The position numbers were made by a program, and so were the translations under genes. 64,000 nt of DNA, taken from the NCBI GenBank assembly GCA_949128115.1, contig OX421961.1:128839050-128903049 (forward strand), read 5' to 3'. The DNA comes from Anaspis maculata. Its lineage: Eukaryota > Arthropoda > Insecta > Coleoptera > Scraptiidae. Shown one piece after another: positions 610-38,266 of this stretch. Position 1 is the first letter of the stretch. Each line of letters starts with the position of its first letter. The notes under the pieces are model-generated. The model worked only from the letters and a program-made list of their open reading frames with translations. It ran no database searches and had not been told where the DNA came from.

Positions 610-666
610 CTTGAAACATTCACTTATGAAAATAGAGATGGAAGCAATATCATCATGGCTCAGTAC
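610..666 (-). other. Candidate 57-nt mini-intron joining modules B and A
   Basis: On the minus strand a GT (GTACTG) sits two bases into the last Lys codon of module B, before its TGA. An AG (TTTCAAG) ends at 610. Removing this stretch deletes the stop and joins B to A in frame. The donor is weak (CAA before GTACTG), so this is inference. The same arrangement occurs at the D/C and F/E junctions. Confidence 0.4.
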
Positions 667-3600
667 TTGTCTATTTTATCCTCCACGTTCTCGTTCTCTC
701 CAAATTCGGATAACCAATTCATACCGTAAATTTGGTCCCAGAACAGAAATCTATATTGATCTAAATACGAGAACGCACCGTAGGCCGCACGTTTGGAGTC
801 GATTTCGAAATAATGAGTCGGCCGTTGTCCGACTGGTTGCCATGTCGGTTTGGAACCGTTCACTGGATTAGGGTTTCCGGTCCTGGCAAACCGAGCCCAG
901 ATCCCGGTCATCAGCTTGATGACCTTCTCTTCAGCCGAGTTTTTTTGCACGCTTTGGTCATCTTTTTTGAAGATATAGGCTAATTCATCACCGTGCCCAG
1001 CACCTGCGCAAGAGCCTCGAATAAGGTCTTTACAGCCACAATCCATCAACCTGAGACTACGTAAATCGATGACCAACATCTGAATGGATGAGGAAAGTGA
1101 TGGAGAAATTATATAAGGAGCTCCAATTTTTGAAGACTTACGTAACTATGTTGATAAAGTGTCATCTGTACCACCTCCTACACCATGTTTGTCAAAAATA
1201 CTCTCACTCGTTTTGGAACCATACTGTAAAGCCTCATCGGCCAGTATGAAAAAATAGATGATCTACTGGTTAACTTCCGGTTCCAGAACAGAACTCCAAC
1301 AGGGTTTCTCGCGATTAGCTGTTGGCCAAAACAACCCAAGCTACATGGGCGTCAAGTGTTAAACAGGAGATTTAAGGTTGAGCTAAAAGATTTCCTTCTG
1401 TTTAAAAGCTATTACTCCTTAGAGGAGCTTTTCAATGAGTGAGTTACTTTTATCTATTTTTTTATTTTGTAAATATGTATTTTTAATATTTTTTTTATGA
1501 CGATATCTATAGAGCTACTGTTTGATACATGTAAGATTCTCACAGACAATAAAATTACTGTTACTGTTACTGTTACTGCATCAAAGATGTAATTCATGGT
1601 TCATGGAATAGCTGAGTGAGGACTTTCTTTGGCGAATTCTGTGTCAAAGCCAACTGATTGATGACAGAAAATGCATACAAACTATGATGAACCCAACATT
1701 TTCTCAAAATCTTCCGTGAAACTGCGTTTTACGTAAGTCGGTATCGAGGTCGGTATGCTAAAATTCACTTAAGAAAACTCTCGGTTAACTATATAGTGAT
1801 CAAAGTCTTTGGTACAATCGGAGGCTAGTCACTTGGACAACTTAACGTTCTGTTATGAGTTGATTCCGCTGCAACCCCTAGAATTTAAATTGTTCCAATG
1901 TTTTTCGTGGAAGTAACCTAACCCACCCTTCATGGGGTTGGAAAAAAACCCATTGAGGGTAGCCAAAGGGTGCTGGGGCAAATGGTATTGGGGAGTTTGC
2001 GTGCACACGTCCGTACGACGTAACGTAACTTTCAACGTGGGAATAGACGAGTTTGTGATAAGGATTTTACACAAACATATCGACGTGCGAATCTAAGAAC
2101 ATCCTAACTCGATTTTTGGCCATTCTGAGTATTGTACAATTTCTGCTGTAAAAAGTCTGCTCTTTCGAATGGCGCAATCAGAATTCCAATCAAAAATTTT
2201 ATAGCAAAGTTATGAACGAAAATAGTAACATCCTAACTTGATTTAGGATCATATCCAGCGTCGAGTAACATCCTAACTCACGCTCTACAACAAGAGCAGA
2301 CTGCGTATTAGTGGCAGAGTGAGAGAGCGCGACATACTTTTGTATCTACTACAAGATTTCCTCTCGTTTCTTTGTTAATTTATAGAAAAAAAAATTGTAC
2401 AGGGTGTTAAGGTTGAGACTGTTTTCCCCCTCCCCCTAGCCACCTTATCCCTAAACCAATTAAAAAAATTAAAAAGGATTTTTGTAGAATTTTCTCTATA
2501 TTTTTCAAATCTGCCTCTGAAAAATAAATAAATAAATAGACGGCCCTGTGGCGCAGGCGGTCGAGTGGCTGCCTGCGACGCGGAAGTCCCGGGTTCGATT
2601 CCCGGTGAAAAGTCTGGGTGTTGTGTTGTCCGAAATTAGCACCTTTCTGAATTTGTAAACTTGATAAATAAACGGACAAACTCCTATGGCGAGAAAAAGC
2701 CGATAAGGAGAAAAACATTTATTTATTATTATTAAATAAATAAATAAATGGAAAAATAATTCATTCCCACTCGTTTTGTCGGGTCCCTAATTTGCAGGGT
2801 ATAACAAAAAATATCTTGTGTTATTACATCTTACATTTAAATAATGCATTCCATGCAGACTTTTGTCTCGATTACAGAGATAGGAGATAGGTGTGTGATA
2901 CTTGAAAAACTCAAAATTTGTATAAACAAAATTCTCAAAATAGCCTTGACTGATCAGATCAGTCTTCCCAATATTTTTGCACTGTAACAATGATAAAATT
3001 TTGGCAGTTCCTTAGTCAAATGGAACCGTGGGTGAGTGTTATATTCCATTGTAGTCAAGACAAAAGTCTGCATCGACTGCATTGTTGAAATGTAGGATGT
3101 AATAAAAGATATATTTTTTGCGACACCTTGTAAATCTACGTCATAGTAATTTTTCATTGGAAAATAAAAAAAAAAGCAAAAATTCTTCAAGAACCACTTT
3201 ATTTTTATTTTTGAAATTGCCTCGGTGATAAGAAGCTATTGAGGGGTATAGTGGTATATAGCCCAGGCATTTTAGGGTTTGACCCTGAAATAAATATGTC
3301 CCTTTTGAAATTTTGCACAAACGGCCTTTGACTAATGCTGAACAACATACTAGAAGCTCCGGCCCGACAAGTGTGCGGAACATAGTTTTTTTGGGCAAGA
3401 ACGGAGTAAGTGCCACCAAATCAGATAAACACTTGCTGTAGCTCAGGAGAGGGTATTGTAAGTCTCAACGTTGACCAACGTGTTCCTCAAGCAATGTTGA
3501 TCCACGTACTGGAAGCTACAGGCCTTGAAATGTGACCGTCATAGTTTTTGATAAGCAAGAAGGGTGTAAGTTCCGCGACAGTGGTAACTCGGTAAAATTC

Positions 3601-6600
3601 GATTTCCTCAAAATTTTGAAGGACCCAGGTTGGTCTGAATGTCTTTCAATCAAGCTAATTCACATTTTAAAACAGAATTCTGTGATTTCCCTCCTCCCGA
3701 CCTACCAACCAAAAAGGAGGGAAAGTATTGTGAGGGCGCTAAAAAACATTTTTCGAGATGAACCCGGAAATATCCGTTTTGAGCCCCCCTGAGACGATCA
3801 GGACCATTTCCAGATGAAAGTTTGTCTGTGTGTGTGTGTGTCTGTCTGTAATATTTCACGATAACTACCAAACGGTTGATTTGATCGGATTGATATTTGG
3901 TATGCAAACATAGTTTTGCTGTAGAATAAGCCTGTCAATTTTTGGCTGTCATCTGTCAAACATAAAAGTCACTGTCAAAACATAACAGGATATTTATTTC
4001 ACAGAACTTGAAATGCAATATGTCATTTGGAAGCCGTCGGAAAACTGTATTCAGAACAGTTAAAAGTACTTCTTTATGTGTAATATGTCAAATATTAAAA
4101 AATATTCAAATTCAAAACTTTCCGATCTAATTATTCAAAATCTGTTAAATGGATTGGAACCAAATTCAGCAGACAGCAACAGAATAAAAGAGTCAAATTA
4201 AGTCTGCAGTTAGGGATTTCCATCATCTCTCAATCAGGCGCTACGAGAATTGGCGGCACTTATTCCTTTCTTGCTCAAAACATCTATGTTCCGCACACTT
4301 GCTGGACGGGAGCTTTTAGTATGTTGTTGAGCATTGATTGGGAGTCATTTGTGCAAATTTTTAAAAGGGACATATTTGTTTCAAGGTTTGACCAAAATTT
4401 CACCTAAAATTCCTGGGCTAATAGTATATTTGAATTGGAATTTTTGCTTGAAGAAAGTAGTTCTCAAACGGTTTTTTGCTATATGGTTAGCTCATCCCCA
4501 CCTGTTCAACATATTGAAAGCATACATCCCTGTGACGCGTAATACCCAGTATACGGGGTGAAAATTGAAAAATAAATCTTTCAACTTTTTTATCCCGGTG
4601 AAATAATTCTCCAAAAAAAACAGCCTCTCATTATTCAGACACCTTATGGTCTCTTACTGGACGTGTGAAAAACTCACCCTTCGATAGCTGCTGGGATTCT
4701 ACGTACAGGGTGAAATAAATTTTTTTCAAATAAATTCTATATCTTGATCAAATCAATCCGGACAAAGACCAATTCCGGCTCTGTTAGAAGCCTATAATCT
4801 CTCATTCAAGGTATAAAAATGTCACATTCCTTAAACTGCTAAAACATGACATACAGGGTGAAACACCATTTTTTTCATTTATTTTTTTCTTGGATCACAT
4901 TAATTCGGATGATAATTTTACCCACTTTGAAGGAAAGCCCAGAGTATTTGGCAAAACATATCAAGACTTTACATTCCTGCAATCACTGCAACTACTGGCT
5001 ACTGTAGCATCAAGCATTTTTGCGATTTTGGTTGTGCGAGAATTTGCTAAGGACAATTTCCTTAGCAACTCCGTCCACAACAAAAGTTGGAGCAACATAT
5101 AATTCATCCTGTATATTAAGTCGGAGTGATATTAGAAATGCAAATTTTTATATAGCTTGCGGAAAACTCTGAGCTTTCCAGTAGACCAGATAAGATCACT
5201 ATCCTAATTAATTTTATCCGGAAAAAAAATGAAACAAATAAAGTATGTTTCACCCTGTAGGTTGTGTTTAGGGAGTGTGAGGAATGTGACATTTTTATAT
5301 CTTGAATGAGAGATTATAGGCTTGTAACAGAGCTGGAATTGGCTTTTGTCTGGATTGATTTGATGAAGATAAAAAACATTGAAAAAAAATTGATTTCACC
5401 CTGTTCGTAGGATACCAGCGACTAAGGAGGAGTACATTTTTCAAATGTTCAATAGGAGACTATAAGGTCGCTAAATGAGGAGAGACTGTTTTTATCGAGG
5501 ATTGTTTCATCGAAATAAAAAATTTCAAAGATTTATTTTTCAATTTTCACCCTGTATACTAAGTATTACGCGTCACAGGGATGTATGCTTTCAACATGTT
5601 GAACAGGTGGGGATGAGCTAACCATATAACAAAAAGCCATTTGAGAACTACTTCCTTCAAGCAAGAGATATTTTTCTTACTATTTCAAGTACACTATAAC
5701 GTAAATCCCGCTACAAGAGATCACAAAAATCTGCAGACAGACTACTTCAGTGGCGCCTTCGGGACATATCCGAGAACATTTGATGAACAAAAAATACCAA
5801 AAGATGAAGAAAAACTCCTGAATAAAAACCGAACTGAAAACTAAGGTAGGTATATCGATTCAAAAACCCAATCAACACTAAAAAGCGTATACCTACTACA
5901 TACTCAATACCTAAAATTTCTGATTTATATACGCAGTTTCTGGCATTTAGGTATAATTTGTAAAGAAAAATTATCATCCTATCTCAAGTTAGGATGATAT
6001 TAGCACGTATGTTTACGCGAACAGGTATAATTCGCAATAGAAAATTATCATCCTATCTCAAGCTAGGATTTAACCGTTTCCGTAACAGAGAACAGTATAA
6101 TCCTAACTCGATACAATTGACAAAATCAGGTTAAAAATATCAAAATTGCCTAGTTTAGGGACGGAAATTGAAAGTTCACATAATAAGGCAGTACTCTACA
6201 AAATTTTGTAAGGGTCAATCATTCCGGTCGATCGTTATCAATTTTTGAAAGATTAAATCTTGTTCTGGCTCTCCTGAAAAGTAGCGATTCTCAAGTTAAG
6301 ATGTTCTTAGATTCGCACGTCGATATTTATACCGGGTGATCATTTGAAAACTATTCACCTGCAATAACTCTCGATTCCTAGTGAATATTTCTTCGAGCAA
6401 AAACAGGCCGATTTTTAGCGCACTTCTCCAAACGGGAAGGCGCTTTTGTCCTCGCTTTGTCCGTCCGTCCGTCCGTCCGTCCGTCCGTCCGTCCGTCCGT
6501 CCCCGCATCTAGTCCTAGACGAAAAGGTTTTTGCAAAAAATTTTTACTCCATTGGGTAGCTCATGACCTTGTATCCCGAACCAAGAAAAATCTTGACGAA

Positions 6601-9600
6601 ATAATAATAAACAATGACAATAATAACAATTTAGTGTGACGCGGCATCGCCGTTAAATGCTGCATTTCAGAAGCCGGCCTGATCTCGAAAGTTATCACAT
6701 GCGAGGAAGTACCCGATCTTATCATTTTACCATAATACATATGCGGAGTTATATTTAGAGGATGATTTGAACTTTATTTTAATGAAAATTTCACATCGGT
6801 GCGAGGTGCCGATTAGTAGTTATTAATTTTTGAACATGACTCCGAAACTACGGCTCGGCCGCAAATGATTTATTCGTTGCCTGCTGGTGCTTGATATCCT
6901 TTCCTCCGAACAAAACGAAATTCAATACAGAAAATATTTCAACTCGAATGGGTAGCTCATGGCCTTGGTACGCGAATCAAGAAAAATGTTGCCGAAATAA
7001 TCATGAACAATTACAAAAATAACATTTTGGTGTAGGGCGGCTTCGCCGATCAAGTGCTGGCATTCGCGGTAAGATGTAGAAAGTTGCGATATGCAGGCAA
7101 CTACAATTTCTTAATGAAATACATCACTGCATGTACGGCATTATATCTAGAGAACAATTTGAACTTTCTTTTGACAAAAACCCCACTTCGATCCGACCGT
7201 TAGGTCAATTGTTATCGATTTTTGAAAACGGCCGCAAAGCCACGGCTCGGCGCATATTACACGACCCTACAAATTTAAAATCAGACGTGCCGAAATAGTA
7301 ATTGAACATTTTGAAATAGCCAATACTAGGTACCTGAAGGATAATGGCACTCAAATTACGAAACATGTTCGCTCAATAACAAAAAAAAAGTAGGTAGGTA
7401 TCACTAAAAATCATGTGACAAGGCTACCATTTTTTTGGTTTTTCGATAAAAAAGAAATGTTCCAATTCAAAAGTGAACCCGATATTCGTGTTCGGGAGGT
7501 CGAAATCAGTTGGAGCACATTTTTTTATATAAGTAACAGAATGACGCTTATGTGGCCGGTTTGTCTGTCTGTCTGTCTGTCTGTCCGAGTCCGTGCAGAA
7601 ATTAAGACGCTGTACTCCTTCTCGAGAATTGAAACAAGAGTCTTGGAACTTTTTTCCGATTAATAGCTGATGTCTCCAAGGGTGGCCAATGGGCACTATT
7701 TTTGTTATCCATACATCGTTATCATTATTCTCAAAAAACAGAGATCTCCTGTGCACTTCGATGAAGTTGAACTTCTCCTCGGGAAATAAAGCCACAGCCG
7801 TTGAAGATTGAACTTTATCCGGTGGATAGCTTAGGTCCTCAAGGACCAAATAGGCAGGTTGGCTTTCATAATTCTGCCGCCATCTTGGCCGCCATATTGA
7901 AATATCTTGTTAGTGGAACGATTTTCATGAAACTTGGAACTTACCCTTGTCTAGTACGATCATTTTGATGTTCAAGCCGAATTTCACGATTCTGTCGATA
8001 TTTTGGCCGCCATATTGCAATTTTTTGCCCAAGACGGTAGAACCCTAATCACTTAACATCTTGCGTTCACTAATCCTCCAAAAAGGAAGTGCGCTACTGA
8101 GCCTCATGCCCATGAGGTATATTCGCTTGTTATATATCAGGCCTGGATAACAGGACATTTAAAACATACCTCCATTTGCAAATTTCTATCTTCAGCCCCC
8201 TCGCCCCCACCCATCCCAAAAATAAAATTTCAAATGACACTACTTACCTTGCGATACATCAGATTGAAGGAAATAAATTCTCTTTTTGAAAAGATATTTT
8301 CAAAAATTTCAATTCTACCCCCTAAAAATGCTCTGAGTGTCCCTTTCAATATTCTGGACCCCTCAATTCTCTCCAGTTTAGTCAGCCTCATCCTGAATAG
8401 CTCCAAAGACGAGAATTTTTGGTGGAAAAAGTGCCACCCAAATTGACCCCATTGCTCTCCCCCACCTCAACTTTAAAACTCAACAAAATACTACCCACTT
8501 TGTGATACATCAAATCAAAGGAAATAAAATTCACTTCCTAAAAACAATTTTTTTGAAATTTTCAACCCTCCCCATTCAACTGGACACTTGGAGTATTCCA
8601 GTAGGAAAACAGGGCTTTGAAAATTTCGAAAAAATTGTGTCCAGGGAGGGAATTCAATCCCCTTCAATTTGATAAATCACAAAGAAGGTGATGTCATTTT
8701 AGATTTTTAAGGTGAGGAGGAGGGAGCGAAGGGGTGAATTTGGGTGGCTTTTTTTCCATAGATAATTTTCTCTTTCGATGCTGTGCAGGATGACGTTGAC
8801 TGCATTGAAGATAATTGAGAGGTCAAGAATATTTGATTGGACATTCAGAGAATTTAGGGGGGAAGAGGTGTGGGGTTGAAAATTTTAGAAATATTTTTTC
8901 AGAAAAGGAATTTAATCTCGTTGAATTTAATGAATCGCAAAATAGGTAGTGTCATTTGGAATTTCAAAGTTTAGGTAGGTGGGGGCGAGGGGGCTCAAGA
9001 TAGAAAATCGCTAATGTATGGTTTAAACGTCCTCCTTGATACAAAAATCGACCTGTTTTTGCTCGATGACATTTCTACTAGGAATCGGGAGTTATTGCAG
9101 GTGAATAGTTTTCAAATGATCACCCGGTATATAATATTATGCTATATTTATATCGATCGGTATGCTGTGAACTATTGCAACCCGAAGTAAACGGGCAGCC
9201 CACTTTGGATAAAGCTCTCTCTCTCCTTAGCTACAGGGAAATTTTCACGTTCTACGTTACGTTGCGTCGTACGTTGCGTAAAATCGCAAACTCCCCATTA
9301 TGGTGTTACGTGTGTGACGTATACTGCCAACCGAGCTACGTAACTCACCAAAAATCAAAATTCACCCGTTTTTCTCATCAAAATTCACAGAAACTTATTC
9401 CCCATTGTTCGAACTTTTCGAAGTTACTCCTGAACTTTTTCCGGAAATTGCCGAAAGTGATCGAATCAATTTCCATTTAGAGCCGTCGGGCGCTAAACTG
9501 AAAATCGGGCGTTGCAACGTGCTTCACATATGATCTACGTCAAATTTCAAGTTTGTGTTTGACATTTGGTGCTAACATTTGTCAAGTTGTAGGAATGTAA

Positions 9601-12600
9601 ATAACGAGCGATCAAAAACTCCATTGCTCAAGTTATCGTAGGTACGTTGCTCACTTTTTCCGAACGGCCAAATCATGAACGCGTGTATGGAGAAAAGTTG
9701 AGCATCGTACGCCAACTTGAGCAATCGAGTATTTGATGGCTCTACACCTCGCGAGCATTACCTACAAATTGGTTAAATTAATTAACGTCTTGATAAATGC
9801 ATTATGGGCTGGGCATTCAGAATCGTTCTGAATCATCAACGTTTATTCACCTTTCTTAGATTTCCTCTACTGAAACCTGCTTTGTTACACCTTTTCGATT
9901 TTACCTGTTAGGTTTCGTCAATAGGGGCGGCACATTCCAACGGACCACAATGGACCAGAGATGTTCACAAATAGAAAATCCTGGATTTAGAAAATAAGAA
10001 CAAAGGAAAACGGTTCAAATCACAGTTCAATGATGGATTTGACGTCCTATTGGATGCGCGCCAACCGAAAATATATTGTAACCATTGCCGAACCTCAACA
10101 CCCCGAGTAAAATTGAAAAGGTCTATCAAGACAGCGTTTGATCACACGATAATGGAAAATGGTGGTCACCTCGATAGCTTGATGCGTCTTCGAAGCACTT
10201 TTTTGTGTAGTTCAGTGCCAGCTCAACGGAGAACTTGTACAGGTATACGTTTTCCGGATCCATTTCTTGAGTTAGACTGCTGGCCAAATTCAAGGTCCCT
10301 ATAATGTAACTGATGTCCGTCTCGATCTGAGAAGCCAAAAATACCGACTTCAGTCTTCACCACACTCGCTTCATAGACAAATCAAAGACATACCATCTCC
10401 GGATAGCTATCATTGAGGTAGCTGAACTTTATTGTGTGATCCAGGTAAAATTTTACAGCCTCAAGGGCTGCCTTGACGGCCTCTTCTTCTGTCGACTGAG
10501 TTTGAGTGAGCCACATCAATTTTCCTAAATGTTGCGGACGTGGCTTTGCATGTGCAAGTGCCATCTCGATGAGTGCCTCTTTTGCGTTGAAACCAATGAG
10601 GACTGGCATTTGCACTTTGTAAATGTCCCCTTGAACGGCAAGCAAGTTGTTCTTCCGCGCAACTCTCCGACTTTCTGCCTGAAATATGATGCATTATTTT
10701 ATTACATCCATGATTATTACACGAATAACCTTGTCGACGCTTGATTGAGAATTGGTATACAACTTGACCTTACTAGGCTTAAAATTTCAGAAACAACAAA
10801 GTGAATGCGGGGATACCAAAAATTTAATCGGATTGAGAATCAGATCAACAAAGACGAAGCCTATAGCAATAGCATCAATACAAAAAAATCCTTAGGCAGA
10901 TCCCAGATAATTGGAGAGTAATCCTTGGAAGATTGAAAAAAACCTATTTTGCAACGTTTCCTGAAATAACATGCATGTTGCGCAGGACATTTTTTGGAGA
11001 TGAATAATTAAAAAAAAAATTAATAAATGCCAAGATGAATGCTGAGTAAGAAATACTACCTGATTTGTACTAAATTATTTCTAGATTAAGTACTCGTTGG
11101 TAAACTAATTGATTTGGTCCATCAATACAACATTATCCCATCTATTATACAGGGAATCCCAGAATGTACTGACGGTTCTCAAGATCACATCATAGCTTTT
11201 GAACTTTTCAAATATGATCTTATCAAGGATGTATGTGAGCAAGATTGAAAGGGTTTTCAGGATTGAAAGTACTCCGAGGTCTTCCAGTCGATTTTTTGCC
11301 ATCAATGTTGCTTAAAACCGGCAATTTCTCGTTCCGCGCCAAAATGTTTTTACGTGGAGAAGCCTCAATACAACAAGACGTTGGAATCCATATCGGAGAA
11401 CTCGTTGAGTCACAACAATCGAATTGTTTCTCAAATAATGTGTCTCGTAAAAAAATGTGTTGGTCGATTGTAGATTTGTTCATGTTATTAATTGTGACAA
11501 ATGGTAACAATACTCCCATGGCTCCTCGATAAAATCGATTTGATCGAAGTTGGAATTGGTTTATCTGTTTAAAACTTGACTGGAAACTTCCTAAATATGT
11601 ACCAGAGACACATTTGTCACAATAATTTGTCAATGGTGTTTGCCTTCCAGTTTTGGGATAACCGAGAAAGATCTGGTTCAAAAGTAGCGGCCTTCTACTC
11701 ATACTGCTCTTAATGCTGTGATATAATCAACCTGTGATAAGTAGGCAGTGTACTGTGTTTTCGACCAATTTTCTCAATGTCTTCAGTTGAACTCACCCCG
11801 AACATTGGATCAGAACAAGACATCAACTCTTCCACTGGCACTTCACGTAGATATTCAAGACAAGCTTTGTCGCTGTCGAATTCTTCGTCAGGACCAATTT
11901 TTTCAGCCACTTGCCTGATGTCATACTGGCATCGTTGCAAAGTACGTTTAATGCTGTGTTCCATGCTGCTGCTCAATATCATTTTATGGAAATATTTACC
12001 TGGTAAAAGAATCCATATAACCATAGTTTTGACCATCTAACCCACAACAAACTTACCAGAATAAGGTTCCACGGTTAACCATCGTATGTATGCACAACTC
12101 AAGCCTTGTCCGTAGGCGGTGATGTTGCCGGGACATCCTCCGAAATGTCTTATTTCTTTCTTCACAAATTCGAAGCCTTTGATTATGTCTTTGAGTCCGG
12201 CATCGCCGTGGATGTTAAGCTCATTGTTTGGTTTTTGAAAGCCTGTGAAACCGAAAATGTCTCGTCTGTGAAACAGCACGACGAGCACAACGTCTTCAGC
12301 CATCAAAAACTCTCCTCCATAAGAGACTTCAAATTTTTCAGGTAGCGCACTGGGTACGAACACTATGACTGGTCTGGTGTAGTTATTGTCGGATTTTCCA
12401 GGTCGCAGCTGTGAAGCAAGAGTGTATCAAGAGTTCCATTGTTAGGCAAATTACGAGGCAAATTACTCACCTCTGGTGTATGAATGTCAACAAAAAGACA
12501 ATCTTCTTGATTCTTTCTATCAGTTCCTTCCTTGTTATTTCTCTTGGTGTTCTCCATGTTCTTCCCCTTGGTGTCTTTCTTGGTGTCGTCACATTCATTA

Positions 12601-12898
12601 GAATTCAAGCCTTCAAACGTAGCAATTTCTTCGGGGTCCTGTGTTAATAAGTATACGATTCGAGTTTAGTATACAAGTAGGTACCCACCTACTCAGCTAT
12701 AATACCACTGGGAAAAATCATAGGTATTATAGCTGCTACTGGGTTTCAACTGACCGCAAATCGTAGATCGCCAACTGGGATTTGTGCATAGCGAACTTTC
12801 GTGAAACGGTAGTACTTGTTCTCTCCACCGTTGTAGGAGCACTGGAGACCCTGAATGGGGCCTTTGCTTGTGTACGCGAAAACTGGTTTTCCGTTCAT
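660..12898 (-). CDS. Esterase module B (type II), complete, predicted non-catalytic
   Basis: This is a seven-exon carboxylesterase-fold gene of about 550 residues. Exons are 12898-12755, 12638-12471, 12408-12057, 11999-11797, 10678-10394, 10326-10170 and 1003-660, all with GT/AG borders and consistent phases. The start is the MNGKPVF Met, conserved in D and F. No signal peptide or membrane segment is evident, so a cytosolic protein is likely. Landmarks are EDCLFVDI (exon 2), DAGLKDI and FGGCPGN (exon 3), GFNAKE with the acid near residue 323 (exon 5) and AGHGDELAY with His near 440 (exon 7). The nucleophile site reads YGQGLS, with Gly near residue 206 instead of Ser, and the HGG oxyanion motif is VPS. 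Hydrolysis is therefore unlikely. Exon 2 has a variable Lys/Asn/Glu-rich insert. Intron 6 is 9.2 kb because of transposon insertions. Confidence 0.88.
2541..2735 (+). repeat. tRNA-derived SINE
   Basis: The head carries an RNA polymerase III A box (TGGCGCAGGCGG) and a B box (GGTTCGATTCC) spaced as in a tRNA, starting at GGCCCTGTGGCGCAGG. The body follows, and the tail has AATAAA-like simple repeats. The tRNA half is degenerate and lacks a full cloverleaf, so this is a SINE and not a tRNA gene. Confidence 0.8.
3240..3420 (-). repeat. Dispersed repeat family R3, copy 1
   Basis: The sequence (AAATATGTCCCTTTTGAAA, then AAGTGTGCGGAACATAG) recurs in opposite orientation at about 4215-4435 and in the same orientation at 55235-55445. 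No coding capacity is seen. It is probably a non-autonomous transposon piece. Confidence 0.65.
3800..4140 (+). repeat. Dispersed repeat family R4 with TG-rich microsatellite
   Basis: A (TG)n/(TCTG)n tract leads into a block (CCAAACGGTTGATTTGATC ... GTCAAACATAAAAG ... ATGTCATTTGGAAGC) that is repeated in inverted orientation at 59450-59705. It is non-coding. Confidence 0.65.
4215..4435 (+). repeat. Dispersed repeat family R3, copy 2
   Basis: This is the inverse of the copies at 3240 and 55235. It begins with TCTCTCAATCAGGCGCTAC and runs through CTATGTTCCGCACACTTG to a GGGACATATTTGTTTCA-type block. It abuts the palindrome that starts at about 4446. Confidence 0.65.
4446..5665. mobile_element. 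1.2-kb palindromic (foldback) element
   Basis: The left arm (about 4446-4930) and right arm (about 5210-5665) are long inverted repeats of each other across several hundred bases, for example GTTAGCTCATCCCCACC at 4488 and its complement near 5610. The motif ACAGGGTGAAA recurs at intervals of roughly 100-150 bp in each arm. There is no transposase. It is presumably a non-autonomous foldback DNA transposon. Confidence 0.8.
6332..9127. mobile_element. TIR/foldback element with TA target site, with nested insertion
   Basis: The termini are CCGGGTGATCATTTGAAAA and its exact complement, flanked by TA on both sides (6330-6331 and 9128-9129). The same family occurs at 50640-51711. The inner sequence from 8150 onward is itself largely palindromic. 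The left arm is interrupted at about 6416 by another element. TA duplication suggests Tc1/mariner-type mobilisation. No transposase remains. Confidence 0.8.
6416..8096. mobile_element. Nested element with TAGCGCACTTC inverted ends
   Basis: TAGCGCACTTC at 6416 is complemented by GAAGTGCGCTA at 8086-8096. Inside lie a (GTCC)n tract (6459-6502) and a (GTCT)n tract (7562-7584). It breaks the left arm of the surrounding TIR element. The right junction is not clean, so the exact end is uncertain. Confidence 0.5.
11235..11520 (-). pseudogene. Degenerate mariner-type helix-turn-helix (DUF4817-like) transposase fragment
   Basis: Minus-strand frames give NNSIVVTQRVLRYGF followed, after a stop and a frameshift, by KKSTGRPRS and PENPFN. 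These match the N-terminal helix-turn-helix and linker typical of mariner-like transposases and DUF4817 proteins of hemipterans (TQRxFRxxF ... KKSTGRPRSVRTPEN). It lies inside intron 4 of module B and is broken by a stop and a frameshift. Confidence 0.65.
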
Positions 12899-13974: not shown

Positions 13975-14242
13975 GTTTCAAAACAATCATCTCAATTACA
14001 TATATCCGAACATGTACGCGAAATTCCTTACACTTGGTGTCAGAAAGCGGTATAATTGAGAGTAATTCAGCCTGCGACTACAGGACGTTTGGAACATTCG
14101 TGATTTGCAAATGCCGGAGACGAGAAGCATGTCAAAGACAGGAGTCGAAGACACTTTGGCGAACATCATGGCGATGATGCAGCAGCAGAAAAGCCTTTGA
14201 GGAGAACAGAAGAAGAAGAAGCGTCTTGAAGAGAAAGACGAG

Positions 14243-14446
14243 TTGAAAAAGCTTCTAGAAGGACAGGAAAAAAGATTGAAAAATATCCTTCAACAACAGC
14301 AAGATCTTCTGCAAGAACAGGAGACTCCACACGAAATGAGACGTCAAAAAGACAAAGAAGAACTCAAGAACCTGCAAGAAGAACAGGAAAGAAAACGCCT
14401 GGAGGAAAGAGAAGAAATATTAGCCACCCACGATCCAACGGAATAG
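14243..14446 (+). pseudogene. Gypsy gag fragment, Gln/Glu/Lys coiled coil
   Basis: The 67 codons are almost entirely Lys, Glu, Gln and Leu in heptad-like order (for example LLEGQEKRLKNILQQQQ). The same coiled-coil type is seen at 48573-48220 (minus) in the larger gypsy element. It is cut by a stop and then joined to integrase sequence by an internal deletion. Confidence 0.65.
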
Positions 14447-14466
14447 TTGTATGGTTCAACCGAACG

Positions 14467-18797: not shown

Positions 18798-18854
18798 CTC
18801 GAAACATTTACTCATGAAAATAGAAATGAAAGCTATATAATTTTTGCTCAGTAC
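18798..18854 (-). other. Candidate 57-nt mini-intron joining modules D and C
   Basis: This has the same layout as at 610-666: GTACTG begins inside the final Lys codon of D, before TGA. The AG here is TTTCGAG, a less favoured acceptor. Removal would join D and C in frame. Confidence 0.35.
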
Positions 18855-27586: not shown

Positions 27587-30500
27587 TTATCCAGTCTCAG
27601 GTATCTTCAGTGATCCAGAAAAGAACTCCAACCCGGCAATGGACTCCCAAAATTCGAACCGCTCCACTTCCACTTTCGGTATCTTATCGTAAGATACGTT
27701 CCTGTTGTTGATGTGTAAACAGTGAGTCAGGTTCTTTCTGATGGGTCGCCAATCCACGTCCAGCAGTTCGTTGCGCTCTTCCGGATTGGGATTTCCGGTC
27801 CTGGCAAACTGGACCCACAGCTTGGTCATCCTTTTGATAACCAGGTCACTCGAGGAATCTTTGGTGATGGTTGTCGTCACCGGCGTTTTGAAAATGTAGC
27901 CCAGTTCATCCGCGTGAGCTGCGTCTGAAATGTACGGTTTCATGTTTTAGCTCTTAGGTTTGCCACGTCTCCAACGAAAATAAACGGGGCAACTCAGTGG
28001 TACTGGAAACCATGTTATTTCTGGGTCAAAGTAGTGACGATCGAGATCAGTTTTCTTTGATCTAAACCGCACCGTTTTCAGTATGTAGCTCTTTGGAACG
28101 TGTTATTAGAAGTAATGAATCAAGAACGGAAAAATGGACAAAAGGCAAAGAATGTATATAGTTCAGGAAAAAGGATATTCAGAACAATGCTTAGTTCAAT
28201 GAACTAGCTGTCACCGGCGCCGGCAAGCCGTCGCCTGGGTGACAGCTATGGTTAAAAAGTAGACAGGGAATTTGTTCCACTGACACCGGACAAGTGGAAA
28301 GGGGATCAACATGATGTTGATTTTCGGTTGTTTTAGGCAGATGTCAGGTTTTCCCTTTGCGAGTTCAGTTATTTTATGCATGTCCGTCGATAAAGTTTTG
28401 GTCAGATGAAGTTTTCCAAGAGGCGTAAGCAACTGACTGTGTATTAGTAACATGAAATCGAAAAGATGTTTGTTTTTCGCGTGCTTTGAAATTTCTGCCT
28501 CGACTTGTAGGGTTCTATTGTGAACGGAACGCATGTCAGTGGGTAGTGTCTGGTCAGTGAAGAGTTGTCGGGGAAAATCGATACACCATTATTTTGTTTA
28601 ATAACATGTATTTCTACTTTTGTTCAAGGTAACTACCAAAAATACTGGAAGCATGTGATGGAGTACCACAATTTTGAGAATGAAATCGACGATGTGTGTT
28701 ATGAAAACCTAAACCGTGAACAAAGCTCTGCCGTGGAGGACACTGTGTTGTGGAAAGCAAAGAAGAACCGTGTATTTGTATTATTTATGAGTCTTTTTAA
28801 ATATGTACCTATAGGAGAAATTGAGATGGAATGAAAGTATGTGGAAAATTCAAAATTTGACAGTTACGTTCCAGTTGTTCATCTGAACCAAATATAGGTT
28901 GTAAGACCCGATGTAATCAGTTGAAAAAAGCAAGAGTTCAATACGGCGCTTTGACCTGCCAAAATGTCGAGTTCGACAAATGCACTTCACATAATTGTCC
29001 ATCTTGACCAAGTATATGTTCAAAATCTCAGTCTAATCTGTTGAAATGAACAAAAGCTCAATATGGCATATGGCAGCCTTGGAAATGTCAAAATAGCAAA
29101 TTTGACGAATGCATTTCGATTTTCAACCTCAAGTGGGTATAGGTTTGAGATCTCAATCCGATTGGTTGAAAAATGCAAAAGTTCAATATGGTGGCCTCTT
29201 GAAACGTCAAAATCAAATATTCACAGATGCATTTTGATCGCCAATCTCAAGTAGGTATAGGTTCGAAATCCCAATCAGATCGGTTGAAAAATGCTAAAGT
29301 TCAATATGCATGGCGACCTCTAGGAACGTCAAAAATCGGAATTTGACAGATACATCTCGACTGCCGGATTGCCTAACCAAAGCAAGTAAAGGTTCCAAAT
29401 CCCAATCGGATAGGTTGAGAAATGCGAGTGTTCAATATGGCGGCGGAATTAGAACTGTCAATATGACAAATTTGACAAATGTATTCAGATTGCCCATTTC
29501 AAGTTGTCATATATTCAAAATCTCAATTGGATAGGTTGGAAAATGCAGAAGTTCAAGATGGCGGCCTCTTGAACGTCAAAAATCAGAATTTAACAGATGT
29601 ATTCTCGTTGTCCGCCTCAAGTGGTCATATATAGGTTTTGAATCCCAATCGGATCGGTTGAAAAATGCAAAAGTTCGATATGGCGGCCTTGGAACTGTCG
29701 AAACGTCAAATTTGATAGATACACCTTGATTGTTCACCTCAAGTGGGTATAAGTTCCAAATTCCAATTGGATAGGTCGAAAATGCAAAAGTTCAATATGG
29801 CGGCCTTTTGAAACGTCAAAAATCGAAGGTTGACAAATGCATCTCGATTGCCTACCTAAAACAAGTACAGGTTGAAAATCCCAATCGGATCAATATGGCA
29901 GCCTTTTGAAACGTCATAAATCGAAATTTGCTAGATGCATCTCGATTGCCTACCCAAAACAAGTTTAAGTTGGAAATCCAAATCGGATCGGCTAAAAATC
30001 GCAAAAGTTTGATATGGTGATCTCTTAAAACGTCAAAAATCAAAGTTTGACAGATGCTGCATCTTGATTGCCTACCTTGAACAAGTAGTATGAGTTGAAA
30101 ATCTCAATCGCATCGGTTGAAAAATGCAAAAGTTCAATGTGGCGGCCTTTTGAAATGTCAAAAATCAAAATGTGACAGAGGCATCTCGAATGCCCACCCA
30201 ATGCAAGTACAGGTTGAAAAATCCAATCCGATCGGTTGAGAAATGGAAAAGTTCAATATGGTGGTCTCTGATGGAGACGGCAAAAATCGAAATCTGACAA
30301 AGGAAAATTCGCTGTGTTTGGAATTAGGTTTGTTCCATCAGCAGTCCCTGACTGTTCGTGGACGTCAGCAGCCTGTTACTCCGTAAATCGTAATGCGCAG
30401 GCTGCTGACGTCCACGGACAGTCAGGGACTGCTGATGGAACAAACTTATTGAAACAATTGAATAGCGAACGCTTACAAAAGGGGGAATACCATGAAATTT

Positions 30501-33500
30501 CGAATAAAAAAGCAACAAATTGGATCTGGTCGACGGTCGTCTATGTTTTTGGTTCAGATTACGCAAAAAAAAAACACCGCAAACACGACGATGAATGTGA
30601 TTTGAGAATTCGGCGAACGATGGCGCGAGTTTGACAGATTCGCGTTAACATCTAGTGAACGGAGGCGCGTGGTGCTGTTGGCAAAAGTGACAGTGGCAGT
30701 CCGACGCTAGGTCGATCGTATCAATGCGAAAAGTTGCACACAGATTTCGATAAAATAGACTACAAAGACGTAATAGAACGCATATGGATCGAAGCATGGA
30801 CCCTTTCTAAAGATCTGACCAGGAGGTCTGATGGAATTATCTGGGATTTCGTAGAGGACAAGACGTGACAACAAGACATTGACGCCGCCACGAGATGTGT
30901 CTGGAAATGGGAACAAGGGGCTTTTCTCGAAATGTGAAGCCGGTAAAAATCGGGCTCTAGTGCAAATATACTGTGAGTACCTACCAGACGTGTTTTGCCC
31001 CATCAATCGCCTGTTTTTGTGAAATATTACGCCGTCAACGTCTGTCCCGGTCTGGGAAATTTTATCAAAGTGCCGTCGAATTTGAAGAACTTTTTGGTTT
31101 TTGGTGTCCGATAGACGCTGAAAAGCCTCCTCTGGACCACGGTTCAATGTCGCACGCTGACACGGTACGTTTTTTCCAAAAACACTGTCCAAATGCCCCG
31201 AGGTGTTGTCGAGTTTTTTCCAAAACCGACAGCGTCAATAATGATGTTTCTGTCAGATTTGGCCGGGCCGTATACCGTTTTCAACATTTTTCGGCAAAAT
31301 TCCAAAAAAAGCCACGCCGAATGGCTCGCACAAGACGATAGTGAGTTCTCGAAACCCCCCGGTCGGCATTTCACACCAAATTTCTCGAAATTCTGCCCGA
31401 GAATCCGAGTTTTCGCCGCCAAAATGTGTCAAGAAATCTCGGACGAATTATTTGAAATGACGATTCCCTTAGAAAAATTGGAATGAATTATGAATTTTCG
31501 AAAAATCCCCTTAAATTCGACAGGAATTTTGGAAATTTTCCATCGTCAACTTGTACTGCGGTTCGTTTGCGAAAATATTTAAAAAAATACCCCGCCAAAA
31601 TCCGACGTCTGGTTTTCACAAATTCCAACCAGACGTCGTTAAGTTCTCTCATGTCTCATGGGTTAGTTTAGGGTGATGATTGACACAGACGCAACTGGAT
31701 CCGTGAACTTGTGATGAAGGGTAAAATAGTGAGTTCGGGTCTTGAATGTCTCGAAACTTTGCTGAATCCGAATTTTGCGACGCAAAGGCCCACGTGTGAG
31801 AAATGAGGCTGGATGTTTTAAATCTTTGGTACGAGAATAGAGTCAATGTGCAAGGATATGTTTTAAAGCAAATGCTGTAAAAAAATAGGAGTGAAGAATC
31901 TGTGTTATGCTTTGCCTGTTGAGTTGGCTGCATACTCGGTTGCGTACCTCGTGCGTCAAAGTAACAAGTGTAAAAATACTTTTACTGAAATATAGTTACC
32001 ATTACTGAAGACAATGTTATCGTACAGCCTTGCTGTGAAGTTCAAGTCAAGATCGACTCCAAATCTGTAAAGGTAGACATATTTTTGTCTCATTGTTCTA
32101 ACGAAATGTGTCGCCAACGCGACAGTTCCTATCGTGTAGTGGAGGTCGGACAGTATCTGAAAAACTTGTAACATCACCATCACGTAAACTAGTTGAAGAC
32201 CCACAAACCATTTCAACAATTTCTTGTCTGGAATCTCCGTTCGCTCCCTCATTTGTTGCGACAAAGAATCTGTAAGATTCTATGACTGTCTTGACTGTAT
32301 CACACATTTCGCTCTCAGCAGTTTCAGGTGTGGAGCCCTGGGCGAGTTGTGCCAGACATATGTTGTTCCATATCAACGTCTCCTGCAGCGTTTCGTCGTA
32401 TCCTTCCCAAGTGAGTCGGTCTATCAAGCCTTCAAGTGAATTATATCCGATCAGCACCGGCATTGATGTTCCATAGCTGGCCGCCGTCGAAAGAGCTCGC
32501 AAATGATCCGGACGAAACATTCGGACTCCCTGTTCAATTTTCAATTAGTTGGAAAGATGATATTGTCTATTGAAATGTTACTAACTCGAAGGGAGTTCAA
32601 TAATGATGAGTTGAAATTCAGAAGCTCTTCTACCGGCAGGTTGCGCAACAGTTCGATGCAAGACCTGTCGTCCTCATTGGTGCTTCCCCAAATTTTGCTC
32701 ACCAAAGATCGGACTTCATAGCGGCTATCGGGAAGGACAATGCCTGTAGCGAGTTCCATGCTACTGCTCAGTATCATTTTATGGAATAAGTCATCTAGAA
32801 TGGGAGAATATTTTGCAGAATACATTGAATAAATATAAAAAGTTCTCAAAGCTATCTATCAAGCGTATCTAAAGCCAAAATTTTAGCACACGTACTTTTT
32901 TCGTTTTGTGCGGCAATCATTCGTATGTAAGTAGCACCCGTTCCTTGTCCGTAAGCCGTGACATTGTCAGGGCATCCTCCAAAAAATTGGATCTCGTTTT
33001 TGACGAAGCGAAAAGCCTTGATTATATCCTGGACTCCGGCATCGATGGGCACGTCGAGCTCTGCATTTGGCTTTTCAAACGCGGTGAAACCCAAAATGTC
33101 ACGTCTGTACGACAAGACGACAAGCACCACGTCTTCCTGCAACAAGAACTGCGGCCCATAGAGATCTTCGCTTCTGTACTGTTCCGCTTTGGGACTCAAA
33201 AGGCCTGGTACAAAGACTATGACTGGTCTGGTGTACTTCTGTGGAGACTCCTTGCGTGGGACCTGGATATAAGAGGTATTTTCAGAATTTGTCCAACAAG
33301 GAATGACAACTCATATGATACCTCTCGGGTATAAATGTGAAGGAAAAGATGATCTTCTGGGCCGTATCTTCCGTTTTCATCCAACTTGAATTGTTTCAAG
33401 TCTTCAAAGGAGCTGATATCTTTCGGTGCCTAAACCAAATTCACTTAGAACTAAGCAATAAGCGTATCACTTTGGTTTTGTCAGTCATTTTGTCGGGTGG

Positions 33501-33908
33501 GAGGTGAGGAGCAAACAGATCAATAGCGTGGAAATTTTTGGTTTCAACCACGGTAGAAATAGGGACGGACTACAGAAATTTGCTGATTGCTCAGCCTGCA
33601 TCTGAATTTTTGAGTCCGTCCCTCCATTTTTCGAGGTTGAAACGTAAGAAAAGTTACCACATTGCACCCGGTACCCACCAAAAAAGCTAAAAGAGACCAT
33701 ACTCACGGCAAATCGGAGATCTTTTACAGGTACTTTCGCGTAAGGCACGTGTTGGAAGCTATAGTAGCAATTATCATTGTAGTTACAAATATCTCCTTCG
33801 ATCGAACCTCTGCTAGTATGAGCAAATATTATGCTATTCGGTTGTTCTTTTGGTAAAATTGTGTACGAGTATGTTGGCACCCGAGAGTCGTCTGACCTAA
33901 AAGAAGAC
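27587..33908 (-). CDS. Esterase module E (type I), complete from exon 1, predicted non-catalytic
   Basis: Seven exons are read: 33908-33707, 33429-33322, 33262-32896, 32794-32586, 32529-32209, 32156-32000 and 27924-27587, giving about 566 codons with canonical GT/AG borders. Landmarks are FAHTSRGSIEG (exon 1), EDHLFLHIYT (exon 2), DAGVQDI, FGGCPDN and YGQGTG (exon 3), LIGYNSLEG (exon 5) and AAHADELGY (exon 7). Gly replaces the catalytic Ser, while acid and His remain. Unlike A and C, an ATG (33949-33947) opens the exon 1 frame, giving an alternative independent start about 10 nt after the stop of F. Otherwise coding would enter by splicing from F. Intron 6 is 4.1 kb because of a roughly 3.5-kb insertion absent from C. 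Confidence 0.85.
28850..30300. repeat. 120-bp satellite, about 12 copies
   Basis: The core TTGAAAAATGCAAAAGTTCA followed by ATATGGCGGCC recurs near 28919, 29040, 29165, 29282, 29412, 29533, 29656, 29775, 29893 (shortened), 29990, 30116 and 30234. This is a period of about 118-125 bp. Copies are diverged, so the array is old. It is non-coding. Confidence 0.85.
30328..30445. repeat. Near-perfect hairpin with 48-bp arms
   Basis: The left arm 30328-30375 (starting GTTTGTTCCATCAGCAGTCC) and right arm 30398-30445 are complementary with about one mismatch, around a 22-nt loop. Such fidelity contrasts with the diverged neighbourhood and suggests a recent event or an active constraint. Confidence 0.85.
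30450..31670. other. Unassigned sequence with overlapping open frames on both strands
   Basis: Frames of 90-160 codons overlap on both strands (for example 31192-30707 minus and 30973-31341 plus) with no recognisable domain. I treat them as chance frames inside the intronic insertion. A stem-loop of GACGTCTGGTT and its complement lies at 31604-31637. Confidence 0.35.
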
Positions 33909-33964
33909 CTTGAAACATTCACTTTAGAAAATAGAAATGGAAGCAACATTAAATGGCTCAGTAC
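33909..33964 (-). other. Candidate 56-nt mini-intron joining modules F and E
   Basis: GTACTG starts in the last Lys codon of F, before TGA, and TTTCAAG ends at 33909. A second, pyrimidine-rich acceptor (CTTCTTTTAG) 12 nt downstream is also in frame. CTAAA upstream could serve as branch site. The splice would give a continuous F-E reading frame of about 1,113 codons. Confidence 0.42.
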
Positions 33965-36900
33965 TTGTCTATCTCATCCTCCACGTTCTCGTTCTCTCCA
34001 AATCCGGATAACCAATTCATATCGTAAATTTGTTCCCAGAATAGGAATCTATCACGATCAAAATCGGAGAGCTCACGGTAGGCCGCACGTTTGGAGTCGA
34101 TTTCGAAATAATGAGTCAGCCTTTTTCCGTATGGCTGCCATGTCGCAATGGAGCCGTTCACTGGATTGGGGTTTCCGGTCCTGGCAAACCGAGCCCAGAT
34201 TCCGGTCATCAACTTGATGACCTTTTCTTCGGCCGAGTTTTTTTGCACCTTCAGTTTATCGTTTTTGAAGATATAGGCTAATTCATCACCGTGTCCAGCA
34301 CCTGCACAAGAGGAGCCTCCAAGAAGTTCTTCATGGCTACATTTTATCAACTCAAGATTCCGTCATTTTATCGCTAGATGCCTGTCCTAATTCTTGGTGA
34401 CTTACATAATTCTCTTGGTGGTATCAGCTTCACCACCTTCCACAATCCGGTTCCTTAGAATACCCTCACGAGAAGTAGTTCGGTTTGAAACCATATTGTG
34501 AAACCATCGACCGGTATGAGGCAAGTTTGAATGTTCAACTCCCGGTTGAACCAAAGAATTGATTCATGGAATAGCTATAACTGAGGACATTCTTCGGGAA
34601 ATCCTAGACCAATGCCAGCAGACTGTCCACAAAGAAGCCATACAAACTATGGTAAACCTGACATTTTGTTCAAAATCTTCCGTCAAAACATTCTCCCATA
34701 ATCTTTCGTGAAACCGCGTTTTTCATTGATCATCATGCTCGAATCTACTGCATAAAACTTTGAATTAACTACTCCATGATTGAATCTCTTGGTGTAACCG
34801 GGGATCAGTCACTTGGGCAACTTGGAATGTTATAATCTGTCAAGTTATTACATGTTGTTATGAGTTATGAGTTGTGCTTTTTATAGCAGGCATTGAATTG
34901 TAAATCGAGCATCGTAGCCCGCTTCACACGACCTCCGTTGCATTTCAAGTTTGTATTTGACATTTTTATTTCTGTCATCTTTCAAGTTAAAGTCAAATAC
35001 TTCACTTGCAATACAGATTCTCAAGAATGATATACTAATGAATGTTTAGCTCTGCATTCAGAATCGTTTTGCCTCGCGTTTTGCATCATCAAGCCTTAAT
35101 TACGTAGGTACCTGAGTTTCTCCTAGTAAAACCTGATCTGACAGACCTTTCCAAATTCACCTGCTAGGTTTTGTAAATGGAGGCGGCACATTTCCGACTT
35201 AGACTTGACTGAATCACTGTTGAGTTAATAACTTGACATTCGTTCGAGTGCGCGCCAACCAAAAATGTATGGTCAGGTATTGGTCACCACTACCGAACCC
35301 CAACACATCAGGGTAAAATTGAAAAGGTCTATTGGGATCTTGTCTGATCACACGATATTTGAAAATGGTGGTCACCTCGATACATTGAGCTGTCCTTGGA
35401 GCAGTTTTTTGTGTAGTTCAGTGCGAGATCAACGGAGAACTTGTACAGGTATACGTTTTCCGGATCCATGTCTTGAGCTAGATGACTGGCCAGATGTAAG
35501 GTTCCTATAACGTAACTCATGTCCGTCTCGATCTAAGAAGCCGAAAATACCGACTTCAGTCTTCACCACACTCGCTTCATAGACAAATCAAAGACATACC
35601 ATCTCCGGATAGCTATCGTGGAGGTAGCCAAGTTCCACCATAGAGTCTAGGTAAAAATTCACAACCGTATCGACTGTCTTGATGGCCTCTTTAAGTGTGC
35701 ACTGAGTTTGAGTGAGCCACAGTAATTTTTCTAAATATCTCGGGTGACGTCGCTCCATAAATTCGATTAGTGCCTCATTTGCGTTGAATCCAATGAGGAC
35801 TGGTATTTGCACTTCGTAAGTGTCTCCTTCAACCGCAAGCAAGTTGTTTTTCCGCCCAACTATGTGATTACCTACCTGAAATATAATGCGTTATTACATA
35901 ACTAACCTTGTCGATGCTGAATTGAAGGCCATAGCCATAGCCTAGTATTTTTTTGTAAACGCTCTATAACATAAGATTGTAAATTTTTGGCATTGAAATA
36001 TTGAACATTGGTTTGAAAATATGAGATGTACTATTCAAAAATATTGACGTTTTGTTTATCCCGTCAAAATGTGACACCCTAAATAACTGAAAATAATATC
36101 AGGCTATAGGTTTTATCAAACCATGTCTGATTTTCTCCTACATATTTTTTTCTATCTTAAACGAGAAGGCTGCTATGGGATAATTACGCTGGATGGACCA
36201 CCCTGTATATAATAACTTAGTTAGCTTAAGTTTGACAGAACTATTAAGACACAATAGATTCGACTACTTTGTAAAATGTGCAAAACTTATAATGAATGAG
36301 ATTGGGCAGACAATGGGCTAGGCGGTGAAATTGTTTTTTTTTTAATCGAAGTTTGTCTTTCTCGGGTTGAACTCACCCCAAGCATTGGATCAGAACAAGA
36401 TATCAATTTTTCCGCTGGCACTTTGCGTAGATACTCAACACAAGCTTTGTCATCGTCAAATTTTTCTTCAGGGCCAATCGTTTCGGCCACTTGCCTGAGG
36501 TCGTACTGGCGCCGTGGCAAAGTATGTTTCATGCTGTGTTCCATGCTGCTGCTCAATATCATTTTATGGAAATATTCACCTGGTTAAAATATCCACATAA
36601 CCATAGTTTCGACCATCTAACCCACAACAAACTCACCAGAATATGGGTCCATGGTTAACCATCGTATGAATGCACAACTCAAGCCTTGTCCGTAGGCGGT
36701 AATGTTGCCAGGACATCCTCCGAAATGTCTTATTTCTTTCTTCACGAATTCGAAGCCCTTGATTATGTCTTTGAGTCCGGCATCGCCGTGAATGTTAAGC
36801 TCCTTGTTCGGCTTTTGGAAGCCTGTGAAACCAAAAATGTCTTGTCTGTGAAACAGCACGACGAGCACAACGTCTTCAGCCATCAAGAACTCTCCTCCAT

Positions 36901-38266
36901 AAAAGACTTCAAATCGTTCAGGTAGCGCACTAGACATGAACACTATAACTGGTCTGGTGTAGTTTTCGTCAGACTTGTCAGGTCGCAGCTGTAAACCGAG
37001 TGTATCAAGAGTTTCATTTTATTGCTAGTCAAGTTACTAACGAACCTCTGGTGTATAAATGTCAACAAAAAGACAATCTTCTATGTTCTTCTTGTCACTC
37101 TTTTCCTTGTTATATCTCTTTATGTTTTTCTTCTTCCTCCTCTTGGTGTCTTCCTTGATGTTGTCGCTAGGACCAAAGTTTGAGACTTCAAGCGTAGGAA
37201 TTTCTTCAGGGTCCTATGTTAATAAGTACAATTTGAGTTAGGTATACACTCAGCTACATGGGCGCCCGGAGGGGGGGGCAAGGGGGGGCACTTGCCCCCC
37301 CCTGGCTCCGGAGCAGCTGAATAAATTCTTCCTTACAAAAAATTTTTTTTTTCGAGAAAGAAAAAAAAATTCATTTTCGAAAGAAAAATCTTTGAGAAGG
37401 TAATTTACATTTTCTTGAATTGTTAGAGCAATTTGAAATTTCATTAGGCTTCTAACTAAATTAGATAGCTACCCGTAAAGTCATAAAATAGGTAGATAGG
37501 TAGGTAGGTAGGTAACGATCTGCAATTTGGGCATTCCAGCTACCAGCTCCACTGCCCAATATAGGGTGAAATGATTATGTTATTTTTTCCGTTTGGTATA
37601 AACACTGTAAAGAGCTTTGGATTAAAAGCAGTTTATTATCAAAACATTTCTAAGAACTAATAAGCCACTAAAAAGCTGCAGACTGGTGGGGGCAGAGGGC
37701 TGCCGCTGTGCCTACCCTCTGCCTCTGCCTTAAATTTTCTAAACCTCTGGTTTAAAAGACTAGGGGTTTTTTCAAGATAATGAACGAGTGTAACTATTGA
37801 CCTGGCTATTTTGAAGTAAATTTTTATACATTTTGTACAAAATTACAAATTTTAATAAATTTCTCTAAAGTTAAGTTCAATTTTCAAATATATTTCCTTA
37901 TTTTTCGCACAATAATTATTATCACCATTATTATTATTATTCGAAAAAATTTTCGCCTGCGGCGCTAATCTAAAGGACTTCGCAAATTAGGCCAGGTAGG
38001 TATGTCTAACTAAAGCTTTTTGCCCCCCCCTGACAAAAATCCTGCGGGCGCCCATGCTCAGCTATGAAAACTTCTTGAAAAAAGATGATATTGCAGCTGC
38101 TACTAAGTTACTAGGTACTGACCGCAAATCGTAGGTCACCAACTGGCATTCGTGCATAGCGAATTTTCGTGAAACTGTAGTACTTGTTTTTTCCACCATT
38201 GTAGGAGCGCAGAAATCCCTGAACGGTGCCTTTGCTTGTGTACGCGAAAGCTGGTTCTCCGTTCAT
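33958..38266 (-). CDS. Esterase module F (type II), complete, predicted non-catalytic
   Basis: This is the first gene of the array. Seven exons are 38266-38123, 37213-37046, 36988-36637, 36579-36377, 35875-35600, 35532-35376 and 34301-33958, encoding about 547 residues, the usual family length. The start is the Met of MNGEPAF, as in B and D. A longer in-frame extension to 38374 exists but is not conserved. Landmarks are EDCLFVDI, DAGLKDI, FGGCPGN, YGQGLS (Gly at the nucleophile site), GFNANE and AGHGDELAY. Exon 2 bears the charged, low-complexity insert seen in B and D. Intron 1 is enlarged by an 800-bp hAT-like MITE and intron 6 is about 1.07 kb. The protein ends at TGA 50 nt before exon 1 of E, with no AATAAA between. 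Confidence 0.9.
37257..38056. mobile_element. hAT-like MITE in intron 1 of module F
   Basis: Termini are CATGGGCGCCCG at both ends in inverted orientation, each followed by G-rich or C-rich runs. It is flanked by an exact 8-bp direct repeat CTCAGCTA (37249-37256 and 38057-38064), diagnostic of hAT-type insertion. The interval is absent from intron 1 of B and D. No transposase is present. Confidence 0.85.

Follow-up and report, generated by a model that had tools for sequence, protein, structure and literature searches.

The window analysed here is a 64,000-nt stretch of the Anaspis maculata genome (C1:128839050-128903049 of a 757.8 Mb assembly), and its minus strand carries three carboxylesterase-like pairs in which a type II module is followed by a type I module: copy C (38266-27587), copy B (21373-15384) and copy A, which runs from 12898 past the left end. 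Both module types were modelled with seven exons each, using GT-AG boundaries with a single GC-AG exception (GC donor at exon 11 of copy B). The type II module of copy C (33965-38266) comprises exons 1-7 at 38266-38123, 37213-37046, 36988-36637, 36579-36377, 35875-35600, 35532-35376 and 34301-33965, with an intact frame, GT-AG sites and PF00135 similarity on its exons; unspliced, it ends as ..DKY TGA at 33958. A 56-nt interval (33909-33964), which can be read as a phase-2 intron (CAA/GTACTG .. TTTCAAG/G), separates it from the type I module (27587-33908), whose exons 8-14 lie at 33908-33707, 33429-33322, 33262-32896, 32794-32586, 32529-32209, 32156-32000 and 27924-27587 and close with their own stop. 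For copy B, the exon model places type II exons 1-7 (18855-21373) at 21373-21230, 21119-20940, 20891-20540, 20482-20280, 19945-19661, 19595-19439 and 19191-18855, a junction interval of 57 nt (CAA/GTACTG .. TTTCGAG/G) at 18798-18854, and type I exons 8-14 (15384-18797) at 18797-18605, 18317-18210, 18152-17783, 17153-16951, 16894-16583, 16528-16378 and 15766-15384. The type II exons of copy A (667-12898) were modelled at 12898-12755, 12638-12471, 12408-12057, 11999-11797, 10678-10394, 10326-10170 and 1003-667, with an intron 6 of 9166 nt; its 57-nt junction interval (CAA/GTACTG .. TTTCAAG/G) occupies 610-666, and type I begins with exons 8-9 at 609-408 and 147-40 (40-609), exons 10-14 lying to the left of the window (locus L009). 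Introns shorter than 70 nt in these three copies measure 48-67 nt, and the 56-57 nt of the junction interval therefore fits the short introns of the same genes.

The sequence-only reading had described three esterase pairs; the pairs are real, but that count was too narrow, as all three are part of a tandem array on one chromosome that comprises at least 12 pairs of type II and type I modules, here named A-L. In the 170 kb read to the left of the window, the two module types keep alternating through copies D-I and the beginning of J, while the junction pairs of J, K and L were recovered by a genome search and their sequence was examined around the junction only. Some array copies are decayed: the type I module of copy H is truncated and only a remnant is left.

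At the junctions of A-C, the type II frame stops shortly before the type I exon, as had been observed: TAC TGA ends at 33958 (C), 18848 (B) and 660 (A), which leaves 49, 50 and 50 nt before the type I exons, whose proposed first positions are 33908, 18797 and 609. Likewise, excision from GTACTG to TTTCAAG or TTTCGAG (56 nt in C, 57 nt in B and A) was confirmed to eliminate the stop and keep the frame. The reported lack of AATAAA between the modules extends to ATTAAA, neither hexamer occurring from the type II stop to type I exon 2 in A-C; the variants present in that stretch are AGTAAA, TATAAA, AATACA, AATATA and AATGAA in B and AATATA in A. The conserved sequence noted upstream of type II is indeed seen there, over about 170-210 nt. 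The assertion that type I has no ATG in A and C failed for C, in which an in-frame ATG at 33949 (MLLPFLFSKVNVSR..) lies downstream of the nearest in-frame stop; the only such ATG of A precedes a further stop, and copy B has none. Across the array, A, B, D, G and J lack an in-frame ATG ahead of the type I domain, while C, E, F, K and L (5 of 11) carry one upstream of type I; in E, F and H an in-frame ATG occupies the M-P position.

The junction differs in state among the copies, with sites that are consensus-like in two, weak in nine and erased in one. In copy I, a single 473-nt open exon (C1:128699445-128699917) takes in both exon 7 and exon 8, with no intron or stop; the joint reads ..FQFWEEIYGMNFLSPPE-RLCMIFPKEESKGQISAYTSKG.., and both pieces lie inside a 199-aa open frame in the genome search. 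Copies G (GTGG/GTAAGTGC .. GACATCAG/ATGACT, 56 nt) and H (GTGG/GTAAGTAT .. GCCATCAG/ATGACT, 59 nt) have in-frame intervals flanked by consensus-like sites that are in phase 1 at either end. The remaining nine copies, A-C included, share a donor of the form xA/GTA (phase 2) and a homologous purine-AG acceptor. Removal of the interval restores the frame in 11 of the 11 copies that bear one, at lengths of 56 (C), 57 (B), 57 (A), 59 (D), 57 (E), 57 (F), 56 (G), 59 (H), 58 (J), 57 (K) and 56 nt (L). Since the corresponding remainders on division by three (2, 0, 0, 2, 0, 0, 2, 2, 1, 0 and 2) take all three values, interval length is not kept at a multiple of three; the distance from the acceptor to a conserved VP is in phase in all 11. 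All 11 of the 11 interval copies have the homologous AG open and in phase, as do only 13 of the 64 remaining AGs of these stretches, which is more than chance; donors and acceptors were picked with the phase known, and this is guarded against by the homology of the site across nine copies, G and H sharing another. Stops are missing from the type I frame of the linker (0/283 codons, versus 8/283 and 10/274 in the other frames) and occur in the type I frame of the interval (14/200 codons, versus 6/206 and 20/201). The type II stop itself varies in position, following KY in A, B, C, H, K and L and lying elsewhere in D, E, F and G, and in copy J the type II frame runs for more than 40 codons free of a stop. 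No order of the junction changes was recovered from the tree used for junction-state polarity. The presence of the fusion joint in several states among the copies makes the history of the junction intron directly testable.

All eight fully modelled copies (A-G and I) have intact fused ORFs of 1112-1166 aa (C 1112, B 1125, A 1141, D 1154, E 1124, F 1130, G 1166 and I 1130), an intactness that is partly built in at the exon edges, because the exon ends of D-G, of I and of the last exons of A were chosen by a script that required phase and freedom from stops, several of them (exons 6-8) being set by hand. Purifying selection acts on both modules in the copies tested, dN/dS over the eight copy pairs computed being 0.40-0.51 for type II and 0.29-0.51 for type I. 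That type I is a dead relic was ruled out, as the fully read copies have intact seven-exon ORFs with dN/dS of at most 0.51. In the tree, a branch supported at 100/100 parts type II from type I, and the deep order (G,I),((E,F),(A-D)) is common to both modules, which disagree within A-D. Between B and C, dS is lower in type II (0.30) than in type I (0.56), a difference with which gene conversion would be compatible. The linker is acidic at its type II side in most copies.

The type I modules of A, B, D and G lack an in-frame ATG ahead of the domain and yet are intact and under selection, a type II module lies directly upstream of each, and copy I is fused; on these grounds each pair of modules very probably represents a single gene for a two-fold protein. 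The two domains are continuous in copy I and would be joined in frame by splicing in 11 of the 11 others. The earlier suggestion of proteins of about 1,100 residues with two esterase folds is thus supported by the copy I exon, by the sites of G and H and by the frame in 11 of 11 copies. Transcription would begin upstream of type II, and excision of a junction intron of approximately 57 nt would remove the type II stop and join the modules in frame, the predicted product being a soluble protein of about 1,110-1,170 residues with two carboxylesterase folds, a linker and a glycine in both nucleophile elbows. Such a type II plus type I gene would have multiplied in tandem as a unit to give the 12 or more copies.

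At the A-C junctions the donor, CAAGTACTG, is the lowest of 34 donors by weight matrix (score -2.96, the 38th percentile of 1482 decoy GTs), and its U1 pairing is among the weakest; none of the 31 other introns in A-C is without both G-1 and G+5, and none of the 31 has a non-YAG acceptor, while acceptor position -3 is a purine in all nine copies with the weak junction form. U1 pairing and weight-matrix scores at the A-C junction thus speak against splicing there. Copy C has a better-scoring in-phase acceptor, TTTTAG, 12 nt beyond TTTCAAG. Over the first ~23-27 codons of the linker dN/dS in A-C is 0.61-1.36, so that substitutions in this segment show no clear coding constraint. Donor and acceptor being very weak by consensus, the exact sites in these three copies are less certain than the fusion itself, and we regard those proposed as probably correct. 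Retention of the interval would leave a single-domain type II protein, and weak sites may for this reason act as a switch. A tentative and rather doubtful extension is that the array encodes a double-domain pseudo-esterase family whose junction intron, which has weak sites and, in most copies, a stop in frame near its beginning, switches between the single-fold type II protein and the two-fold protein.

Weak junction sites in A-C would also be expected if type I were made independently of type II, from a start in a 5' exon of its own that is joined to the type I exon by splicing, and A, B, D and G do need a start from somewhere. We scanned for such leaders across 210 nt of 5' flank, the exons, the short introns and 60 nt at either end of long introns. 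Among the 23 ATG..GT leaders common to A-C, some start at an out-of-frame ATG of type II exon 1 or 3 and run to a real donor (scores about 10) with the phase that the acceptor requires; if the later type II exons were skipped, type I might in principle gain a short leader in this way. However, none of the 23 begins in the 5' flank or an intron: every start is in an exon of type II, in the junction interval or in the exon of type I. One further leader, which starts in intron 3, is limited to A and B. In copy B the type II introns total 861 nt and the middle part of intron 6 is unmatched in A or C, and copy I holds both modules in one exon. A separate type I product is accordingly improbable.

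Fusion could alternatively be reached in A-F and J-L by another splice, for example from exon 6 to an upstream AG (CATAAG or CATTAG) or from a donor internal to exon 7, with loss of the type II end. Exon 6 ends in phase 1, which is the phase required by the upstream AG located 13 nt before the main AG in A-D; in D this AG is a YAG site (CATTAG), and within exon 7 the three window copies share a phase-1 GT that scores 2.6-6.1. Against this, the upstream AG of A-C scores within the lowest third of decoys, its counterpart in E and F lies 12 nt before the main AG and needs phase 2, none is listed in J, K or L, and the splice would remove a type II end that I, G and H retain; we consider this route slighter still. 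Separate translation of type II and type I from one bicistronic mRNA, the option that had been offered alongside fusion, would suit the ~50 nt from stop to type I exon, the absence of AATAAA between the modules and the in-frame ATG upstream in C, E, F, K and L, but it is highly unlikely given that the type I ORF of A, B, D and G is intact although its domain is not preceded by an ATG in frame, that J has no such ATG either, and that copy I is a single continuous frame. Read-through of the type II stop was ruled out by further in-frame stops in A and B and by a relative module frame that differs among copies.

By profile, the favoured two-fold protein belongs to the carboxylesterase family. The fused protein of copy B matches PF00135 with 434.1 bits (cut-off 27; E 1.1e-129) and has two COesterase stretches, the best of which aligns residues 7-513 to profile positions 4-501 of 515; of eight exon-bearing frames compared with the profile, seven match and six exceed the cut-off. 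In all 16 domains of A-G and I the nucleophile elbow reads GQG or GHG, a glycine taking the place of the catalytic serine. The variants are GQGLS or GQGMS in type II and GQGTG or GHGTG in type I (GQGLS and GQGTG in copy C); the type II elbow was aligned to the GESAG of solved esterases, as in copy C, and the type I elbow falls in the same columns as that of type II. The GxSxG serine of an active carboxylesterase is therefore missing from the array domains, whereas the Glu and His are kept, including in copy C type II. The triad acid was found by pattern (PVLIGxNxxE) in 16 of 16 domains, and the histidine in 8 of 16 by a pattern in which G or A must stand at position -3 relative to it; the sequence reads DAAH, DAVH, EAAH or DAKH in the remaining eight. 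Simple hydropathy revealed no clear signal peptide or membrane span in the eight proteins: the maximal 19-residue mean of 1.41-1.68 lies inside the fold, and the best ten-residue mean near the N-terminus is 0.12-0.62. As both nucleophiles are lost, we infer a function in binding, sequestration or scaffolding, and from sequence a non-catalytic role of this kind inside the cell appears most likely.

As a rule, insect carboxylesterases are regarded as enzymes with a single fold. Of the solved structures, those that match best are E3 / alpha-esterase-7 (PDB 4fng), which we take to be the blow fly enzyme, and chains labelled simply as carboxylic ester hydrolase (9d1j and others). The array proteins share with alpha-esterase type carboxylesterases (4fng) the order of the fold and the positions of Glu and His, and differ from them in having two folds and in the change of GESAG to GQGLS or GQGTG. 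Cholinesterase-like adhesion molecules (neuroligins, gliotactins, neurotactins and glutactins) are characterized as a membrane-bound class with an esterase fold that lacks at least one triad residue (PMC9958613). By that description, the array proteins resemble them in lacking a triad residue, but they have two folds and, judged by simple hydropathy, no clear membrane span. Two COesterase stretches are found as well in predicted proteins of Diprion similis (esterase E4-like; P0005, 902 aa), Euphydryas editha (P0004, 968 aa) and Iphiclides podalirius (P0001, 685 aa, partial), at 25-29% identity to the array proteins. In the Diprion and Euphydryas proteins the elbow serine is kept and the second part has an apparent Met of its own, so these may be merged gene models. 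Protein searches gave three matches (26-27% identity) for the fused query and 47 (best identity 29%) for a five-module alignment, with no orthologue in another species found by either, and an open-access literature search in one library returned no description of two-domain esterases of this kind. For an esterase-like protein encoded on another contig of the assembly, the named homologues that head the matches listed (the best 120 of 640) come from beetles (Tribolium 66%, Diorhabda 69%), as expected of a beetle genome.

A dozen-copy array that pairs serine-less esterase folds, with purifying selection in the tested copies, points to a non-enzymatic function, candidates for which are the binding or sequestering of ester ligands, or scaffolding. 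Annotation cut at the in-frame stop would instead yield two 'esterases' per copy.

The same genome also contains a single-domain paralogue on another contig (C6, ~16982267-16996448) with the elbow GQGIG. Like the array domains it has no elbow serine, but it is a single fold with its own Met and stop, and in the tree it falls outside the array on a long branch. The module downstream of this paralogue also has an apparent Met of its own.

Divergence between copies B and C of the esterase array is unequal along the fused gene: over exons 1-14, dS amounts to 0.30 in the type II module (exons 1-7) and 0.56 in type I (exons 8-14). This lower value in type II makes it look as if the type II modules of B and C had been homogenised by gene conversion. 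Intron 6 of type II spans 9.2 kb in copy A (window 1004-10169, minus strand, from the exon models) as against 247 nt in copy B, and inserted repeats perhaps account for its length in A. An open frame on the plus strand directly 3' of copy B type I (window 14230-15063) is a fragment of a retrotransposon-type integrase by its match to Integrase_p58_C (PF22938, E 3e-07).

Among copies C and B, whose type I ends lie inside the window, and A, D-G and I, whose ends lie outside it, most have an acidic stretch before the junction between the modules and close type I with a tail of basic residues such as KKRR or MERRR. The type I C-terminal end lies at window 27587 in copy C and 15384 in copy B; the stop comes earlier in C, and despite this a B-like tail-end sequence, GAAACGTAGATGAGG, is still found near window 27520.

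On C6, another sequence of the assembly, outside the array, the region G000:C6:16974000-16997000 (loci L030, L031 and L032) holds a related esterase-like gene that encodes one domain with its own Met and stop, and its nucleophile elbow is likewise without Ser (GQGIG). A second module, with a Met of its own and a long N-terminal extension rich in Lys/Ala, appears to start about 170 nt 3' of that stop. Together they perhaps represent the paired layout of the array in unfused form.
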